A stretch of 64,000 bases of DNA, taken from NCBI RefSeq assembly GCF_019884785.1, contig NZ_CP082326.1, positions 4,271,355 through 4,335,354 of the forward strand, given 5' to 3'. The stretch comes from Crassaminicella profunda. Its GTDB lineage: Bacteria > Bacillota > Clostridia > Peptostreptococcales > Thermotaleaceae. The position numbers and the translations under genes are program-made. The notes under the pieces were generated by a model. That model searched no databases, was not told where the DNA came from, and was given only the letters and a program-made list of their open reading frames with translations. How positions within the stretch are numbered: position 1 is the stretch's first letter; every line of letters begins with the position of its first letter. Positions 37,140 through 57,084 of this stretch are shown in pieces.

Positions 37140-37425
37140 ACATGAAAATAGCAAACCTCAAAAGCAATGCAGGAGAGCGTATTTTTTAAAAACAGTTTCA
37201 GAGAGTCGGTGGTTGCTGAGAACCGATACTGTAAAAAAATACTACTCACTCCTAAGCAGTTTCTTTGAAATAATAGTAGGAGAAAATGGATGGCCCCATT
37301 ATCGGCTAAAGTTTGATCAAACTTGTAAGAGCGGCTTTTGTATTTTGCAAAAGCAAGTTAAGGTGGTACCGCGGGGAAATAAGCCCTCGTCCTTGGATAA
37401 GATTATTCTTGGACGAGGTTTTTTG
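37140..37425 (+). promoter_or_regulatory. T-box leader (probably tRNA-Leu sensing) of leuA
   Basis: The T-box core AAGGTGGTACCGCGG is at 37360-37374. The terminator stem CCTCGTCC / GGACGAGG (37385-37392 with 37411-37418) plus TTTTTTG follows. Stem I is recognisable: GTATTTTTT pairs with AAAAAATAC, AGG pairs with CCT below, and GAGAGTCGGTGGTTGCTGAG forms the distal part. The internal loop between these helices holds TACTCACT, which contains CTC (37245-37247), a leucine codon followed by a purine. Uncharged tRNA-Leu would favour antitermination and leuA expression. Confidence 0.9.
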
Positions 37426-49159: not shown

Positions 49160-49275
49160 CTTTTATATCTCTTCAATTATAAAATTTTAGGGATGTAAAT
49201 AAGGATTAAATATCCTTGTATCTCTTATATTGAACCTCATATAAATCTATGATATACTTACATAAAAAATAAATA

Positions 49276-49314
49276 AGACAGTTCGTAACCATCCTGTCTA
49301 TAAACAAAACTAGG
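49276..49314 (+). promoter_or_regulatory. PreQ1-I riboswitch aptamer
   Basis: The stem AGACAG / CTGTCT (49276-49281 with 49294-49299) encloses TTCGTAACC, and an A-rich tail TATAAACAAAACTAGG follows. The layout and bases correspond closely to known preQ1-I aptamers such as the Thermoanaerobacter one (CUGGGUCGCAGUAACC then tail AACAAAACAAGG). In this class the tail docks into the loop when preQ1 binds. It precedes an operon with queD, queE and queC, which confirms the assignment. Confidence 0.88.
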
Positions 49315-49319
49315 ACTAT

Positions 49320-49347
49320 ACTACCTACCGTCTTAGGTAGTTTTTTG
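49320..49347 (+). terminator. Expression-platform terminator of the preQ1 riboswitch
   Basis: Stem ACTACCTA / TAGGTAGT (49320-49327 with 49334-49341) followed by TTTTTG. The aptamer tail AAACAAAAC can instead pair with the downstream TTTTGTTT stretch. Ligand binding to the tail should therefore free the terminator and turn the operon off. Confidence 0.8.
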
Positions 49348-49353
49348 TTTATG

Positions 49354-49374
49354 GGGCAGCTATGCCCTTTTTTT
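49354..49374 (+). terminator. Second short hairpin with T-run in the preQ1 leader
   Basis: GGGCA-GCTA-TGCCC followed by seven T, only 20 bases before the first gene of the operon. It is a short stem but GC-rich; it could act as a second terminator or lower basal expression. Confidence 0.5.
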
Positions 49375-49393
49375 GTTGGAATGGAGGAATATA

Positions 49394-50404
49394 ATGAAAA
49401 AAATTGGTTTGACTACGACAGTTCCTGTAGAGGTTTTATTTGCAGCAGGTTATCAACCAGTAGATTTAAATAATCTTTTTATTGTTTCAAAGGATTATAT
49501 GAAATATATAGATATAGCAGAACGAGATGGTTTTCCAAAGAGCCTTTGCGCATGGATTAAAGGAATCTATGGAGCTTGTGTTGAGAATGGTATAAAGGAA
49601 ATCGTAGGAGTGATGGAGGGCGATTGTTCTAATACCAAGGCTTTGATAGAAGTTCTTGCTTTAAGAGGAATCAAGGTATATCCTTTTTCATTTCCTCATA
49701 ATCACAGACAAGAAGATGTAGAAAAAGAAGTTAGAAAGTTTATGGAAATCTTTCAGGTAGATTTAGAAGAAGTTGAAAAAATACGACAAAGATTGAATAG
49801 AATAAGGCAATTAGCAAAGAAAATTGATACGTTAACCTATATTGATTATCAAGCAACAGGTTTTGAAAATCATTTGTATCAGGTAAGTTGTAGTGATTTT
49901 AATGGGAATCCTGATCATTTTGAAGTTGAGCTTAAAAGTGTTATTAAAGAAATAAAAGGGAGAAATCCTATAAAGAAAAAGATAAGGTTAGGCTACATAG
50001 GGGTTCCTCCTATGACAGCAGATCTTTATACTTTTGTACAAGAGCACCATGCCCAATTTGTTTACAATGAGGTACAACGAGAATTCGCTTTTCCAAGGGT
50101 AGATGAAGCAGATACCATATTTAAGCAGTATTATGATTATACTTATCCATATGATGTAGGGTACAGAATAAAAGAATTAAAAAAGCAAATAGAGAGAAGA
50201 AAATTAGATGGGATTATTCATTATACCCAAGCCTTTTGCTATAGAGCAGTAGAAGATATTGTACTGAAAAAAGCTTTGGATATTCCTATACTGAATATAG
50301 AAGGAGATAAATTAAATATATTAGACGCTAGAACGAAGCTTCGGATAGAAGCATTTTTGGATATGTTAAAGGACTTAAAAGGTGGGATAGGATGCGTATA
50401 TTAG
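49394..50404 (+). CDS. 2-hydroxyacyl-CoA dehydratase D-component / double-cubane-protein-like subunit
   Basis: A 336-residue protein of the 2-hydroxyglutaryl-CoA dehydratase D-component superfamily (also holding benzoyl-CoA reductase subunits, YjiM and the double-cubane cluster protein). Cysteines at 52, 62, 78 and 282 (contexts KSLCAW, GACVENG, EGDCSN, QAFCYRA) are likely Fe-S cluster ligands. Only one subunit is present, as in homodimeric double-cubane proteins. It overlaps by 13 bases the gene of its ATP-dependent activase and is first in the preQ1-controlled queuosine operon. A role in reduction of a 7-deazaguanine intermediate is inferred from context only. ATG 49394 follows GGAGG with 7-base spacing. 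Confidence 0.8.
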   Translation: MKKIGLTTTVPVEVLFAAGYQPVDLNNLFIVSKDYMKYIDIAERDGFPKSLCAWIKGIYGACVENGIKEIVGVMEGDCSNTKALIEVLALRGIKVYPFSFPHNHRQEDVEKEVRKFMEIFQVDLEEVEKIRQRLNRIRQLAKKIDTLTYIDYQATGFENHLYQVSCSDFNGNPDHFEVELKSVIKEIKGRNPIKKKIRLGYIGVPPMTADLYTFVQEHHAQFVYNEVQREFAFPRVDEADTIFKQYYDYTYPYDVGYRIKELKKQIERRKLDGIIHYTQAFCYRAVEDIVLKKALDIPILNIEGDKLNILDARTKLRIEAFLDMLKDLKGGIGCVY

Positions 50405-51183
50405 GAATAGACCTTGGCAGTAGAGAAGTAAAAATAGCTGTCATGGAAGATAAAAAATTGATTAAAAAGATGAGGGTAAGTACCATGTCTTTTTACAGAG
50501 ATTACTGTAATTATGATGGAAAGGTGATTGTAGATTTAAAAAAGCTAGGTATTACAAATATTCATGGAGCTATATCAACGGGATATGGTAGAAATAATAC
50601 GGATTTAAATAAATTTAAAGCAATCAACGAAATAAAGGCCCATGTGTATGGAGCTTTTTATCAGACTAAATTAAAGGACTTTATTTTATTAGATATTGGT
50701 GGACAAGATGTAAAGGTTGTTAAAGTAGAGAAGGGAATGATTACAGATTTAGAGCTGAATGAAAAATGTGCAGCCTCTTGTGGCAGGTATCTTGAGAATA
50801 TGGCAAATGTATTAGAAATTTCTTTGGATCAAATGAGTAAGTACTATGAAAAACCCGTATCTCTTAATTCAACTTGTGCTGTTTTTTCTGAATCAGAGTT
50901 GATTGGGAAAATTGCTGAAGGAGTAGATGTTGAAAGTTTGTGTGCTGGGGTAAATTATTCTTTATATAAAAGACTCCAGCCCTTATTGAATAAGTTTCGT
51001 GGAAGAAAGCTTATTTTAACAGGTGGCGTTGCCAATAACCGTGCTATAAGGAAATATCTTAAGAATGATTATGATGAGATTATTTCTATTAAGGAAACCC
51101 AATTCAATGGGGCAATAGGGTGCTGTTTTTATGGTAGTATGATGGGGAAATTAAAATTGGAGGAAAATAAATGTATCTTTTAA
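50392..51183 (+). CDS. Acyl-CoA dehydratase activase (BcrAD/BadFG/HgdC ATPase)
   Basis: A 263-residue ASKHA-fold ATPase with nucleotide-binding motifs GIDLGSREVK, DIGGQDVKV and LTGGVANNRAI. Cys-rich loops CAASCGRYLE and STCAVFSES, typical of HgdC, let two subunits hold one [4Fe-4S] cluster between them. Activases inject a low-potential electron into the partner dehydratase or reductase at the cost of ATP. Its coding region overlaps the preceding partner by 13 bases and queD by 13 bases, showing tight co-expression. The electron donor is not encoded nearby. Confidence 0.9.
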   Translation: MRILGIDLGSREVKIAVMEDKKLIKKMRVSTMSFYRDYCNYDGKVIVDLKKLGITNIHGAISTGYGRNNTDLNKFKAINEIKAHVYGAFYQTKLKDFILLDIGGQDVKVVKVEKGMITDLELNEKCAASCGRYLENMANVLEISLDQMSKYYEKPVSLNSTCAVFSESELIGKIAEGVDVESLCAGVNYSLYKRLQPLLNKFRGRKLILTGGVANNRAIRKYLKNDYDEIISIKETQFNGAIGCCFYGSMMGKLKLEENKCIF

Positions 51184-51614
51184 AAGCAGAACATAGCTTT
51201 GATAGTGCGCATTTTCTAGCTAATTACAATGGAAAGTGCAAAAATATTCATGGACATAGATGGAAGGTAGAGATAGAAGTTTATGCAGAAAACTTGGTAG
51301 AATGTGGTCAGCTAGACGGGATGGTTGTAGATTTTGGAGATTTAAAAAGAGATCTTCGTGAAATCGTTGATTTGTATGATCATGCGTTAATCATACAAAA
51401 GCATTCTATGAGAGAAGCAACGCTGAAACATTTACTAGAAGATGAATTTAAGGTAATAGAAGTCAATTTTAGACCCACTGCTGAAAATTTTTCATATGAT
51501 TTCTTTAAAAATATAGAAAAGAAAGGCTATCAAGTAAAAAGGGTGATGGTTTATGAAACACCTACCAATTGTGCAGTTTATGAAAAAAGTGAGGGAAAAT
51601 CATGTATAAAGTAG
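51171..51614 (+). CDS. queD: 6-carboxy-5,6,7,8-tetrahydropterin synthase
   Basis: A 147-residue PTPS-family enzyme for the second step of queuosine precursor synthesis (dihydroneopterin triphosphate to carboxytetrahydropterin). Zinc-binding histidines lie in FDSAHFL and NIHGHRWKVE, the active-site Cys in NGKCKNIHGH, and the conserved PTAENFS stretch near residue 103. It overlaps the activase gene upstream and queE downstream by 13 bases each. It is in the preQ1-regulated operon. Confidence 0.95.
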   Translation: MYLLKAEHSFDSAHFLANYNGKCKNIHGHRWKVEIEVYAENLVECGQLDGMVVDFGDLKRDLREIVDLYDHALIIQKHSMREATLKHLLEDEFKVIEVNFRPTAENFSYDFFKNIEKKGYQVKRVMVYETPTNCAVYEKSEGKSCIK

Positions 51615-52264
51615 TTGAAAAGTTTGTAAGTGTTAATGGAGAAGGAAGACTTTCAGGACAATTAGCTGTATTCATAAGGTTTAAAGGGTGTAATCTTGAT
51701 TGTAGCTATTGTGATACAAAATGGGCAAATAAAGAGGATACACCCTATACGCTTATGAGTAAAGAAGAAATATATAATTATATAAAGTCTACAGGGGTGA
51801 AAAATGTTACGTTGACGGGGGGCGAGCCTCTTCTTCAAGAGCATATAATTCCATTGATTGAGTATTTAGCAATGAATCAAGAATTATCTATGGAAATAGA
51901 GACGAACGGAAGTATCTCTATAAAAGATTTTAGTATATTAGAAAATCCCCCAAGATTTACAATGGACTATAAACTCCCTTCTAGTAATATGGAAGAAAAA
52001 ATGCTTGTAGATAATTTTTATTATTTAGAAAAAGAAGACACAGTAAAATTTGTAGTAGGGAATAAGGATGATTTATATAGAGCAAAAACAATTATTACAA
52101 GGTATGAATTAACAAAAAAGACACAAGTATATTTAAGCCCTGTATTTAATCAGATTGATTTAAAAGAGATAGTAGAATTCATGAAAAAGCATACAATGAA
52201 TGGGGTAACCCTTCAAATGCAGCTTCATAAAATTATATGGAATGAAGAGATGAGAGGAGTTTAG
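51602..52264 (+). CDS. queE: 7-carboxy-7-deazaguanine synthase (radical SAM)
   Basis: A 220-residue radical SAM enzyme that contracts the pterin ring to 7-carboxy-7-deazaguanine. The [4Fe-4S] ligands are in [13 protein letters not shown] (CX3CX2C). The [19 protein letters not shown] start and LTGGEPLLQ are typical of QueE. The length is normal. It overlaps queD and is followed by queC after 2 bases. Confidence 0.95.
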
Positions 52265-52266
52265 AT

Positions 52267-52926
52267 ATGAATCAAGAAAAAGCAGTAGTTATATTTAGTG
52301 GAGGGCAAGATAGTACAACCTGTTTATTTTGGGCAAAGAAAAGATTTAAAGAGGTCATAGCTGTATCCTTTGATTATAATCAAAAACATAAGCTAGAGCT
52401 TACCTGTGCCAAGGAAATTTGTAAAAAATACAATGTAGAGCATCATATTTTAGATTTGGGGTTACTCAATCAATTAGCACCAAATTCTTTAACGAGAGTG
52501 GATATAGAAGTAGATAAAGAATCACCAAAGGAAGGTGTACCAAACTCTTTTGTAGATGGAAGAAATTTATTATTCATAACCTTTGCAAGCGTCTTTGCAA
52601 AACAAAGAGGGATCAATCATGTTGTAACAGGTGTATCTCAAAGTGATTATAGTGGATACCCTGATTGTAGAGATGTGTTTATCAAATCTACAAATGTAAC
52701 GTTAAATTTATCTATGGATTATCAATTTGAAATTCATACACCCTTAATGTGGATTAATAAGGAAGAAACATGGAAAATGGCATATGATTTAGGGGTATTA
52801 GATATTATTAAAGAAGAAACTTTAACATGTTATAATGGAATAAGAGGAAATGGATGTGGAGAATGTCCTGCTTGTCATTTAAGAAAGAAAGGGTATATAG
52901 ATTTTAAAAAATCTAACGAGCTGTAA
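52267..52926 (+). CDS. queC: 7-cyano-7-deazaguanine synthase
   Basis: A 219-residue ATP-dependent enzyme converting 7-carboxy-7-deazaguanine and ammonia to preQ0. The PP-loop is [15 protein letters not shown], and zinc ligands at the C-terminus lie in [20 protein letters not shown]. It is the last gene of the operon. The preQ0 reductase QueF and the later enzymes QueA, Tgt and QueG/H are not in the window. Confidence 0.95.
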
Positions 52927-52999: not shown

Positions 53000-53023
53000 A
53001 GAATTAATAAAAATGAAAATATT

Positions 53024-53097
53024 TTGGGAAAACGATGAAATACGTATTGTAATTAGGGCACCTAATATGTATTGAGTTAGTGGTGCTACCGACCCCA
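53024..53097 (+). promoter_or_regulatory. Cyclic di-GMP-II riboswitch aptamer
   Basis: The core ATTAGGGCACCTAAT hairpin is followed by TTGAGTTAGTGGTGCTACCG and ACC. The Clostridioides cyclic di-GMP-II aptamer has the matching UUGAGUUAGUAGUGCAACCG, together with an upstream GGAAACAAUGAUGAA-like segment (here GGGAAAACGATGAAA). Pairing of GGG (53026-53028) with the terminal CCC closes the structure. Confidence 0.88.
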
Positions 53098-53130
53098 ATG
53101 CTCATGATTTTTGAGTATAAGGGGTTTTTT
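53093..53130 (+). terminator. Expression-platform terminator of the cyclic di-GMP-II riboswitch
   Basis: CCCC (53093-53096) and CTCA pair with TGAG and GGGG (53121-53124), followed by six T. The same CCCC closes the aptamer, so ligand binding should block the terminator and switch transcription on. Confidence 0.8.
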
Positions 53131-55799: not shown

Positions 55800-56006
55800 T
55801 TATTTTTTTGCTGAGATTAAATAATCTTCATCTAATTCTTCTACAGATAAATCATATCCAGCATTTTTTAAAAATCTTGAGACATTATTTTTAGCTGTAT
55901 TATTATCAACGATTACTTCAATAGTTGATGGATTAGAAGCAATTGCATTTTTAGTCATTAAGACAGGTTGGGGACAGGACATACCCCTTACATCAATTTT
56001 AGCCAA
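55800..56006 (-). CDS. yedF: YedF-like TusA-domain protein (selenium metabolism)
   Basis: A 68-residue TusA/SirA-fold protein with the conserved Cys-Pro in VRGMSCPQPVLMTK. The common YedF selenium protein is about 200 residues, with a second DsrE-like domain; here only the TusA part is present. It overlaps the yedE gene by 8 bases. Its Cys is the presumed site carrying sulfur or selenium as a persulfide-like group. Alternative name: TusA-like sulfurtransferase. Confidence 0.82.
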   Translation of the reverse strand: MAKIDVRGMSCPQPVLMTKNAIASNPSTIEVIVDNNTAKNNVSRFLKNAGYDLSVEELDEDYLISAKK

Positions 56007-57084
56007 CTTTCACATCTCCTTTCACTTTACTTTCACTGATTACCATTTCTGAGTTGAAATATCCTACTAAGGCAACGATAATGAAGCAAATGATGACAGC
56101 TATTTGCCCGTTTGATGTAGGGCCTTTAGGGCTAGATGCTAAACCAAAGTTGTGACAAATTGCAGCGCCAACGATCATACCCATAACCGTAATTACAGAA
56201 TCTGTATTTCCTTCACCTGCTAGGATTAATTGTCTCATAGGACAACCACCCAGGAGAACGGATGCCCATCCGCATAAAACCATTCCTAAGAAGTTCCAAA
56301 GTCCATCAGCATGTGCAACAGGCTGACCTTCAAAACCAATATTAAAATAACCCAATAAGACATTACCAATAAGTGAAAATACAAATATAGCAATAAATCC
56401 TGATAAAAGGTAGGTATCTTTAAAAAGAATGAAGTCTCTTATGCCACCAACCATACATAATCTTGTTCTTTGAGCAAGAGCACCTACTATTAGTCCTGCA
56501 GCTAAAGCAATAAAAATTGGTGCATGCATTTTACCTGGACCTTTTTCACTGAAGAAAATAAATGCAGGTGCGCTTACTAATAAAGCAATTAATAATACAT
56601 TTACAATCGGAAAAACAAAGCCTTCAGATTTTGGTAATTTATAACTTCTTCTTAAACTAAATCCCTTATTTAAGAAAAATATCCCTAAACCAATTCCTAC
56701 AACAAAACCTGCAATACCAAGAATAGCATTTAAATCTCCTCCACCAAGTCGTAAAACCATTCTTAGAGGGCATCCTAAAAACATCAAAGCACCGATCATA
56801 ACAGTAACCCCAAGGGTAAATCGAATAAAGGGAGATGATCCTCCTCGCACTTGGAATTCTTTTTTACTAAGAGCGATAATAAATGCACCTAGGACCAATC
56901 CCATAATTTCAGGTCTTAAATACTGTACAACAGCTGCTCTATGAAGACCTAATCCCCCTGCAATATCTCTTAAAAAACATGCAATACAAAATCCCATATT
57001 TACAGGGTTTCCGAATTTAACTAATAAGACAGCAATGATTCCAACAATGGCTCCTGTAAAGATAATTCCTTTTTTTTCTTCCAT
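55999..57084 (-). CDS. yedE: YedE-type putative selenium transporter
   Basis: A 361-residue polytopic membrane protein of the YeeE/YedE family with about ten helices. It has the paired Gly-Cys-Pro motifs FLGCPLRMVLRLGGGD and LLGGCPMRQLILAGEGNTD, plus Cys in GFCIACFLRD and RTRLCMVGGIRDF. The family transports thiosulfate or, in the branch found next to YedF and DUF3343, is proposed to import selenium compounds. The gene set here supports the selenium branch. AGGAGGGG precedes the ATG. It is divergent from a cysteine desulfurase-like gene. Confidence 0.88.
   Translation of the reverse strand: MEEKKGIIFTGAIVGIIAVLLVKFGNPVNMGFCIACFLRDIAGGLGLHRAAVVQYLRPEIMGLVLGAFIIALSKKEFQVRGGSSPFIRFTLGVTVMIGALMFLGCPLRMVLRLGGGDLNAILGIAGFVVGIGLGIFFLNKGFSLRRSYKLPKSEGFVFPIVNVLLIALLVSAPAFIFFSEKGPGKMHAPIFIALAAGLIVGALAQRTRLCMVGGIRDFILFKDTYLLSGFIAIFVFSLIGNVLLGYFNIGFEGQPVAHADGLWNFLGMVLCGWASVLLGGCPMRQLILAGEGNTDSVITVMGMIVGAAICHNFGLASSPKGPTSNGQIAVIICFIIVALVGYFNSEMVISESKVKGDVKVG

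Follow-up and report, generated by a model that had tools for sequence, protein, structure and literature searches.

A 64,000-nucleotide stretch of the Crassaminicella profunda genome (here called the window) carries an operon in which genes for a protein resembling the D component of 2-hydroxyglutaryl-CoA dehydratase (HGD-D-like protein) and for its activase, together termed the pair, precede queD, queE and queC behind a preQ1-I-like leader. Judged from sequence, the pair is very probably an ATP-driven nitrile reductase, not orthologous to QueF, which takes QueF's place in converting preQ0 (7-cyano-7-deazaguanine) into preQ1 (7-aminomethyl-7-deazaguanine). This reading is supported by genome comparison and not by biochemistry: none of 396 genomes contained both the pair and full-length QueF, and 99 of the 100 genomes containing a true QueC possessed exactly one of the two. 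The operon and its leader consist of the following features.

49273..49319, plus strand: preQ1-I-like riboswitch aptamer, GACAG/CTGTC P1 stem and AAACAAAACTA tail (RF00522, 26.2 bits)
49320..49341, plus strand: terminator hairpin followed by a T run, the likely expression platform (terminator scan, 8 pairs; minimum-free-energy fold of the leader)
49394..50404, plus strand: HGD-D-like catalytic component, the proposed preQ0 reductase (PF06050, 6.5e-40)
50392..51183, plus strand: ATP-dependent activase of the ASKHA type (PF01869; TIGR00241, 170 bits against a cut-off of 125.4)
51171..51614, plus strand: queD, 6-carboxytetrahydropterin synthase (TIGR03367, 93.7 bits against a cut-off of 89.25)
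51602..52264, plus strand: queE, 7-carboxy-7-deazaguanine synthase (TIGR03963, 345 bits against a cut-off of 260.1)
52267..52926, plus strand: queC, preQ0 synthase (PF06508, 2.1e-85; TIGR00364, 269 bits)

The five genes overlap at three of the four junctions, while queE and queC are separated by a gap of 2 bases; the initial annotation was right about the presence and order of the genes. It had also placed the first two genes in families that use ATP to drive low-potential reductions, in agreement with the PF06050 and TIGR00241 scores and with the fold described below, and had noted the lack of QueF, QueG and QueH, none of which is present among the five genes. For the HGD-D-like gene, ATG at 49394 was the best choice of start codon, with a TTG in the same frame upstream at 49373. 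The operon holds a single PF06050 gene, and the order-set survey described below likewise gave one match per genome.

Distribution of the pair, QueF and QueC

The window's genome, a single 4.59 Mb contig with a listed completeness of 98.46%, was searched for the other genes of the queuosine pathway, as the initial annotation had proposed. Tgt (1930284-1931345) adjoins QueA (1931428-1932438) in this genome, and a QueG-like protein scored 247 bits with TIGR00276 against a cut-off of 200, whereas neither QueF (PF14489, E<=0.001) nor QueH was matched there. Thus, with Tgt, QueA, the QueG-like protein and QueD, QueE and QueC present, the conversion of preQ0 to preQ1 was the only step from QueD onward that was unaccounted for. 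Three further members of the genus were included in the order set, and they had neither the pair nor a true QueC.

The survey, also proposed beforehand, covered an order set of 148 genomes and a phylum set of 249 (396 in union). The cut-offs for the pair, QueF and QueC were E<1e-100, E<1e-30 and E<1e-50 in the order set, each lying within a wide score gap, and 1e-40, 1e-12 and 1e-25 in the phylum set, where they were set in the search and nothing weaker was visible; fragments above the cut-offs (e.g. in genomes G383 and G266) were counted. In the order set, the pair was found in 24 genomes, full-length QueF in 10 and true QueC in 28. Of these 28, 23 contained the pair and 4 contained QueF; no genome had both, and one, G018, had neither. 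The phylum set gave 50 genomes with the pair, 61 with QueF and 73 with QueC; the pair and QueF did not occur together in any of them (probability by chance 1.2e-7), and all 73 QueC genomes contained exactly one of the pair (42) or QueF (31). Taken over the union, the 100 genomes with true QueC were divided into 64 with the pair, 35 with QueF, none with both and one with neither. Among the 325 genomes lacking QueF, the pair was present in 64 of 65 with QueC versus 9 of 260 without it (Fisher 1e-56). These P values ignore kinship; six families (f1, f2, f3, f20, f49 and f50), however, hold both pair genomes and QueF genomes without any genome having both, which speaks against a purely inherited pattern of exclusion. 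These results supported the preference of the initial annotation for the step from preQ0 to preQ1.

Several candidates were set aside in this survey. Fourteen weak PF14489 matches in the order set (E 2e-7 to 5e-4) were not counted as QueF; their coverage was limited to 57-60 of the 81 positions. With 28-32 bits, those of G046, G060, G070 and G135 exceeded the Pfam cut-off, none in a pair genome, and two others were located in pair genomes (G086 and G098), each in a gene of about 185-190 residues occupying the folE slot of the operon. One of these weakly matching proteins, that of locus L067, was scanned and proved to be GTP cyclohydrolase I, its QueF signal being a shadow of 20 bits. A match in G020 (28% identity, E 2e-11) was regarded as a paralogue and not counted with the pair.

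Gene neighbourhoods and the leader

We examined 103 que-type loci, 23 from the order set and 80 named ones (the best 80 of 521 confirmed, from at least 586 pattern matches), with six contigs shared between the two groups, giving 97 distinct proteins. An activase gene was near the HGD-D-like gene in all 103; QueD, QueE or QueC was near in 83, QueT or YhhQ instead in 11, and neither in 9. A lack of conserved linkage in relatives, which would have told against the initial annotation, was therefore not observed, with a que gene, QueT or YhhQ close to the pair in 94 of the 103. The named hosts include Clostridium, Tepidibacter, Ruminiclostridium, Halanaerobacter and Natroniella as well as the Fusobacteriota Ilyobacter and Propionigenium. 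The QueF genomes of the order showed the arrangements queD-queE-(folE)-queC-queF (L071 and L073) or queT-queF (L076 and L077), i.e. the same partners with QueF in the place of the pair.

Three loci (L115, L132 and L149) combine the pair with QueC and QueT, the gene set expected for salvage of 7-carboxy-7-deazaguanine in the Ac variant of PMC6593275. Nine genomes had the pair without QueC, and six of them (G103, G162, G180, G190, G194 and G281) contained a strong match to YhhQ (PF02592), encoded beside the pair in G103 and G180, while in a seventh, G181 (L160), QueT adjoins the pair. The YhhQ search covered 33 of the 73 pair genomes, hand-picked to include all nine without QueC, and none of the 24 genomes with both pair and QueC (of 64) that were put into it gave a match. 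YhhQ of Escherichia coli imports preQ0 and preQ1 (PMC11130926, PMC5372724). In a quick tree, for which the que rows of the named loci were thinned, the salvage-type rows were scattered (7 label changes), which suggests that the de novo and salvage forms switched repeatedly.

The leader element displays the hallmarks of a preQ1-I aptamer, namely the P1 stem, a UUC...CC loop, an A-rich tail with CUA and a position 5′ of queuosine genes. Its RF00522 score lies below the Rfam gathering score of 39, and it was missed at the default threshold, only a targeted search revealing it (E 0.0013, 221 bases searched); relatives scored 22-27 bits in 9 of the 16 searched. A pattern derived from this leader, GACAGTTC(N)CCTGTC(N)AAANAAAACTA, was present 5′ of the pair in 93 of the 103 que-type loci, including eight of the nine with no que or transporter gene nearby (one of these eight, L138, is a 4.6-kb contig), and unmatched in L059, L086, L100, L116, L123, L125, L126, L129, L130 and L140, where variant spellings or truncated contigs may account for the missing match. 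When searched over 143 pair loci (1.97 Mb, both strands), the pattern gave 99 matches, 94 of them 5′ of the pair, 5 as an extra aptamer copy before the detached activase, queD or queE part of a split operon (L062, L065, L084, L088 and L117), and none elsewhere. Since 93 of 103 loci carry the pattern and all 99 matches precede genes of the pair, queD or queE, the aptamer occurs beyond chance. A cruder stem-based scan was positive in 79 of 144 upstream regions, 40 phylum loci included, versus 20 of 1430 windows drawn at random from these loci; a few of the random windows may themselves include genuine copies.

P1 was paired in 19 of 19 distinct sequences counted (of 40), and its outer pair appeared as A-U, G-C, G-U or U-A; the other five pairs were invariant, so covariation supports one pair only. 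The riboswitch variant was also found 5′ of four of the six QueF loci read, before queDEC-queF in L071 and L073 and before queT-queF in L076 and L077 (not in L072 or L074), and 5′ of a separate queDEC operon in G106 (L075). Thus, with the same element before the pair and before queF loci, the pair belongs to a regulon that elsewhere contains queF. The preQ1-I riboswitch of the initial annotation was upheld as a preQ1-I-like aptamer with a terminator, albeit of sub-gathering score.

Other observations concern the leader and its surroundings. The highly conserved GACAG/CTGTC P1 variant, present in the window and in L071, L073, L075, L076 and L077, scored 22-27 bits where searched, under the Rfam gathering score, and queuosine regulons in Clostridia may be under-annotated, since the variant is missed at that score. 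A further hairpin that resembles a terminator and has a T run (49353-49368, plus strand) follows the riboswitch terminator, ahead of the first start codon, and a promoter-like match with TG before the second hexamer lies at 49230-49258, such matches being no commoner in the region than in shuffles. In L062 (5841-10060, minus strand), a 677-residue reading frame is situated between the two pair genes, each of which has a preQ1-type aptamer 5′ of it, and in L009 (2557-2638, minus strand) and L010 (2614-2698, minus strand) a small RNA of the Clostridiales-2 family (RF02937) is located between the preQ1 aptamer and the first gene of the pair. A c-di-GMP-II riboswitch (64 bits; 53019-53103, plus strand) directly follows queC; elsewhere, the window contains a T-box leader (131 bits; 37158-37397, plus strand) and, at 55800-57084 (minus strand), a TusA-like small protein gene adjoining that of a YeeE/TsuA-like membrane protein, both named by eye.

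Fold, cysteines and proposed mechanism

The AlphaFold2 model of the HGD-D-like protein had a mean local confidence (pLDDT) of 87, and a structure search with it returned 16 PDB chains at E<=0.001, all of them the double-cubane protein DCCP, 2-hydroxyisocaproyl-CoA dehydratase (HadBC) or benzoyl-CoA reductases. A PF06050 score of 138.2 bits against a gathering score of 28.4 placed the protein in the HGD-D superfamily, and PF06050 was its only domain, the QueF domain PF14489 being absent. In alignments of 24 and of 61 sequences, C52, C78 and C282 were the only invariant cysteines. Each of them has a cysteine counterpart in DCCP and in 3o3m chain B, and C282 also corresponds to Cys327 of BzdN; Cys36 of BzdN is matched by T7 in a weakly aligned region, and BzdN Cys263 and Cys293 lie opposite gaps. 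In BzdN, the double cubane has six ligands (Cys36, 73, 100, 263, 293 and 327), and the catalytic [4Fe-4S] cluster of BzdO has three cysteine ligands (PMC11971306). The conserved cysteines thus form a single-cubane set, as for one [4Fe-4S] cluster. With three invariant cysteines against the six ligands needed, and with 50.7 bits for NF040772 (double-cubane protein) against a cut-off of 350, the double-cubane cofactor assumed in the initial annotation was rejected; by its cysteines, the HGD-D-like protein is not of the double-cubane type. Instead, it has the three-cysteine set of 2-hydroxyacyl-CoA dehydratases and BzdO, the cluster itself being predicted, and lacks the second, different HGD-D subunit encoded alongside in the heterodimeric dehydratases and benzoyl-CoA reductases.

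The activase matched the HgdC structure 1hux with an E value of 1.1e-38 and is of the HgdC type by its TIGR00241 score. Its C126 and C162, which we take to be the cluster ligands, align with cysteines of 1hux and were invariant in 20 sequences.

In the mechanism that we propose, QueD, QueE and QueC would make preQ0, and the pair would convert it to preQ1, the step of QueF elsewhere. The activase, by homology to HgdC a homodimer with a bridging [4Fe-4S] cluster, would take an electron from ferredoxin or flavodoxin as the presumed source, and ATP would drive the transfer of this electron, at low potential, to the HGD-D-like protein. Given its single gene, the latter is probably a homodimer. In each subunit, C52, C78 and C282 would bind one [4Fe-4S] cluster, one iron site of which would stay open. 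Loss of the subcluster has been proposed to free space for substrate (PMC11971306), and the nitrile of preQ0 may be bound where double-cubane proteins hold their distal subcluster, to be reduced stepwise to the amine with a presumed stoichiometry of four electrons. The preQ1 formed would enter tRNA via Tgt, with QueA and QueG completing the pathway, and excess preQ1, the likely ligand, would shut the operon off through riboswitch and terminator.

Compared with known systems, the pair shares with QueF (PF14489) its proposed place in the pathway, its operon partners (queDEC and queT) and, in four of six loci read, the riboswitch variant; unlike QueF, it belongs to an unrelated family, includes an activase and, judging from its homologues, depends on ATP and iron-sulfur clusters. 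DCCP with its reductase (6eno, 7yyl) offers the closest solved fold (E 1.3e-14, TM 0.78) and the same organization of a single HGD-D gene with one activase, but the pair protein lacks the cysteine ligands of the second cubane and is shorter (336 versus 421 residues). HadBC and the benzoyl-CoA reductases BzdNO and MbdON are similar in fold and activase family, the three-cysteine set being that of the BzdO [4Fe-4S] cluster, whereas they have two HGD-D subunits and act on CoA esters, in contrast to the one subunit and the 7-deazaguanine pathway of the pair. The activase resembles HgdC and HadI (1hux, 4eht) in sequence and both cysteine motifs and differs from them in its partner protein and pathway. 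As in the salvage variants Ac and Ao with QueF (PMC6593275), pair loci contain queDEC, QueC with QueT, or QueT or YhhQ alone, except that the pair stands where that scheme has QueF. Hence, the pair is closest to QueF in function and to DCCP and the benzoyl-CoA reductases in machinery, and is by these tests a member of neither.

Alternative explanations and implications

A number of points weigh against the replacement of QueF by the pair. The reduction of preQ0 needs no electrons of very low potential, QueF using NADPH (PMC11625349), so that an ATP-driven system looks wasteful; no member of the superfamily was described as reducing nitriles in the literature examined, and the word nitrile is absent from PMC11971306. 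Every single Rfam match to the aptamer was weak. Among the pair genomes searched, QueA was not found in three drafts (G048, G222 and G300). For pair genomes without QueC, the YhhQ match of G375 was weak and partial, and G361 had no YhhQ, QueT having been looked for near pairs only. The HGD-D-like gene of L174 had no activase nearby, and the activase was separated or beyond the range shown in L169, L185 and L192. Finally, in the phylum set, loci were read from 40 of the 49 pair genomes besides the window's, and by BLAST 37 of these 40 had no que or transporter gene near the pair; the riboswitch was present in one of the 40 (L160). For the phylum-set loci without que linkage, it is the distribution by itself that makes the case.

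It is unlikely, though, that the que-linked pair is a preQ0 reductase while the unlinked pairs do something else and their exclusion of QueF reflects descent. In the quick tree, the unlinked rows formed one long-stemmed clade (38 rows, SH-aLRT 100) next to a que-linked clade, devoid of the riboswitch (L160 lies outside it) and with a different neighbourhood: in four of the five loci inspected (L158, L162, L175 and L179), a murI-like gene precedes the pair and rph- and rdgB-like genes follow, with a yfcE-like gene in three, while L169 differs. Among these neighbours, murI (L179) and the genes for methylaspartate mutase E and a metallo-beta-lactamase (MBL)-fold protein (L175) were matched by NCBIfam, and the others were named by eye; the remaining unlinked loci were similar in gene lengths only. 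The exclusion of QueF held in this clade too: it contained 38 of the 40 pair loci read from the phylum set, and all 73 QueC genomes of that set had exactly one of pair or QueF. In families f20 and f49, some genomes have an unlinked-type pair and others have QueF, but no genome has the two together. In addition, clade genomes without QueC carry YhhQ (G162, G180, G190, G194 and G281). As a separate observation, the block murI - (methylaspartate mutase E) - pair - (MBL) - rph - rdgB spans 2859-12081 in L175, 276-6922 in L179 and 5503-10385 in L158.

We consider it quite unlikely that the pair acts on a 7-deazaguanine to form another product, whether for DNA modification, for a secondary metabolite or to install a group other than aminomethyl at position 7. 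Such an activity would be in keeping with G018, the one genome with QueC and neither pair nor QueF, in which queC is located (L069, 2916-7361) beside a FolE2-like gene named by eye, a QueD-like gene and the gene for a protein of 794 residues that weakly matches TGT and DUF6884, a cluster that presumably resembles those for 7-deazaguanine modification of DNA; the contig ends about 1 kb beyond it, and a neighbour may have been lost. Yet this sole DNA-type cluster is without the pair, the riboswitch is of the preQ1-I type, Tgt adjoins QueA in the window's genome, and QueA accompanied the pair in 47 of 49 phylum-set genomes (including all 42 of good quality) and in 23 of 24 order-set genomes.

The initial annotation had left open whether the pair replaces QueF or the epoxyqueuosine reductases QueG and QueH, which perform the last reduction of queuosine synthesis. 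We favoured QueF because the pair and QueF never co-occur and nearly all QueC genomes have one of them, an exclusion that replacement of QueG or QueH does not predict. QueH was indeed lacking from the window's genome and found in only one of the 24 order-set pair genomes (G143), and the best QueG match was below the cut-off in G048, G129 and G133. However, QueG exceeded the TIGR00276 cut-off in 20 of these 24 genomes, the window's own included, and the pair follows QueC, and thus the supply of preQ0, not QueA, which was present in 142 of the 148 order-set genomes versus 24 with the pair. The second option was dropped as very unlikely.

An ordinary acyl-CoA dehydratase or reductase, found together with queuosine genes only as a side effect of anaerobic life, is a scarcely credible alternative: the nearest solved relatives of the pair do act on CoA esters or small molecules (PMC11971306), but the pair has a single PF06050 gene instead of two, linkage to que or transporter genes in 94 and to a preQ1-type riboswitch in 93 of 103 loci, and an occurrence in QueF-lacking genomes that depends on QueC (64 of 65 versus 9 of 260). 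Nor did the window's genome combine complete queF and queG or queH with a clear CoA-linked substrate for the pair, which would have spoken against the initial annotation.

With QueF replacement thus preferred, it is likely that the pair represents a second, unrelated way of reducing the nitrile of preQ0, in which a single-cubane iron-sulfur enzyme of the DCCP/benzoyl-CoA reductase superfamily uses ATP for a nitrogenase-like four-electron reduction of nitrile to amine. This solution would occur in place of QueF across Clostridia-type anaerobes and some Fusobacteriota, would have been exchanged repeatedly with QueF and would exist in de novo and salvage operon forms. The literature searched contained no link of queuosine to such a pair; bioRxiv and most subscription journals were outside its coverage, so prior publication is possible.

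QueF has been described as required for preQ1 synthesis (PMC11130926), and genomes with queDEC and no QueF would accordingly be scored as unable to make queuosine; in a gut survey, queuosine among Firmicutes was ascribed mostly to Bacillales and Negativicutes (PMC6593275). If our reading is true, many Clostridia would be queuosine producers, and maps of queuosine exchange would change. The biological function of DCCP is stated to be unknown (PMC11971306), and the pair would provide a defined substrate for a lineage close to it, as well as an assayable model for ATP-driven nitrile reduction at an iron-sulfur cluster.

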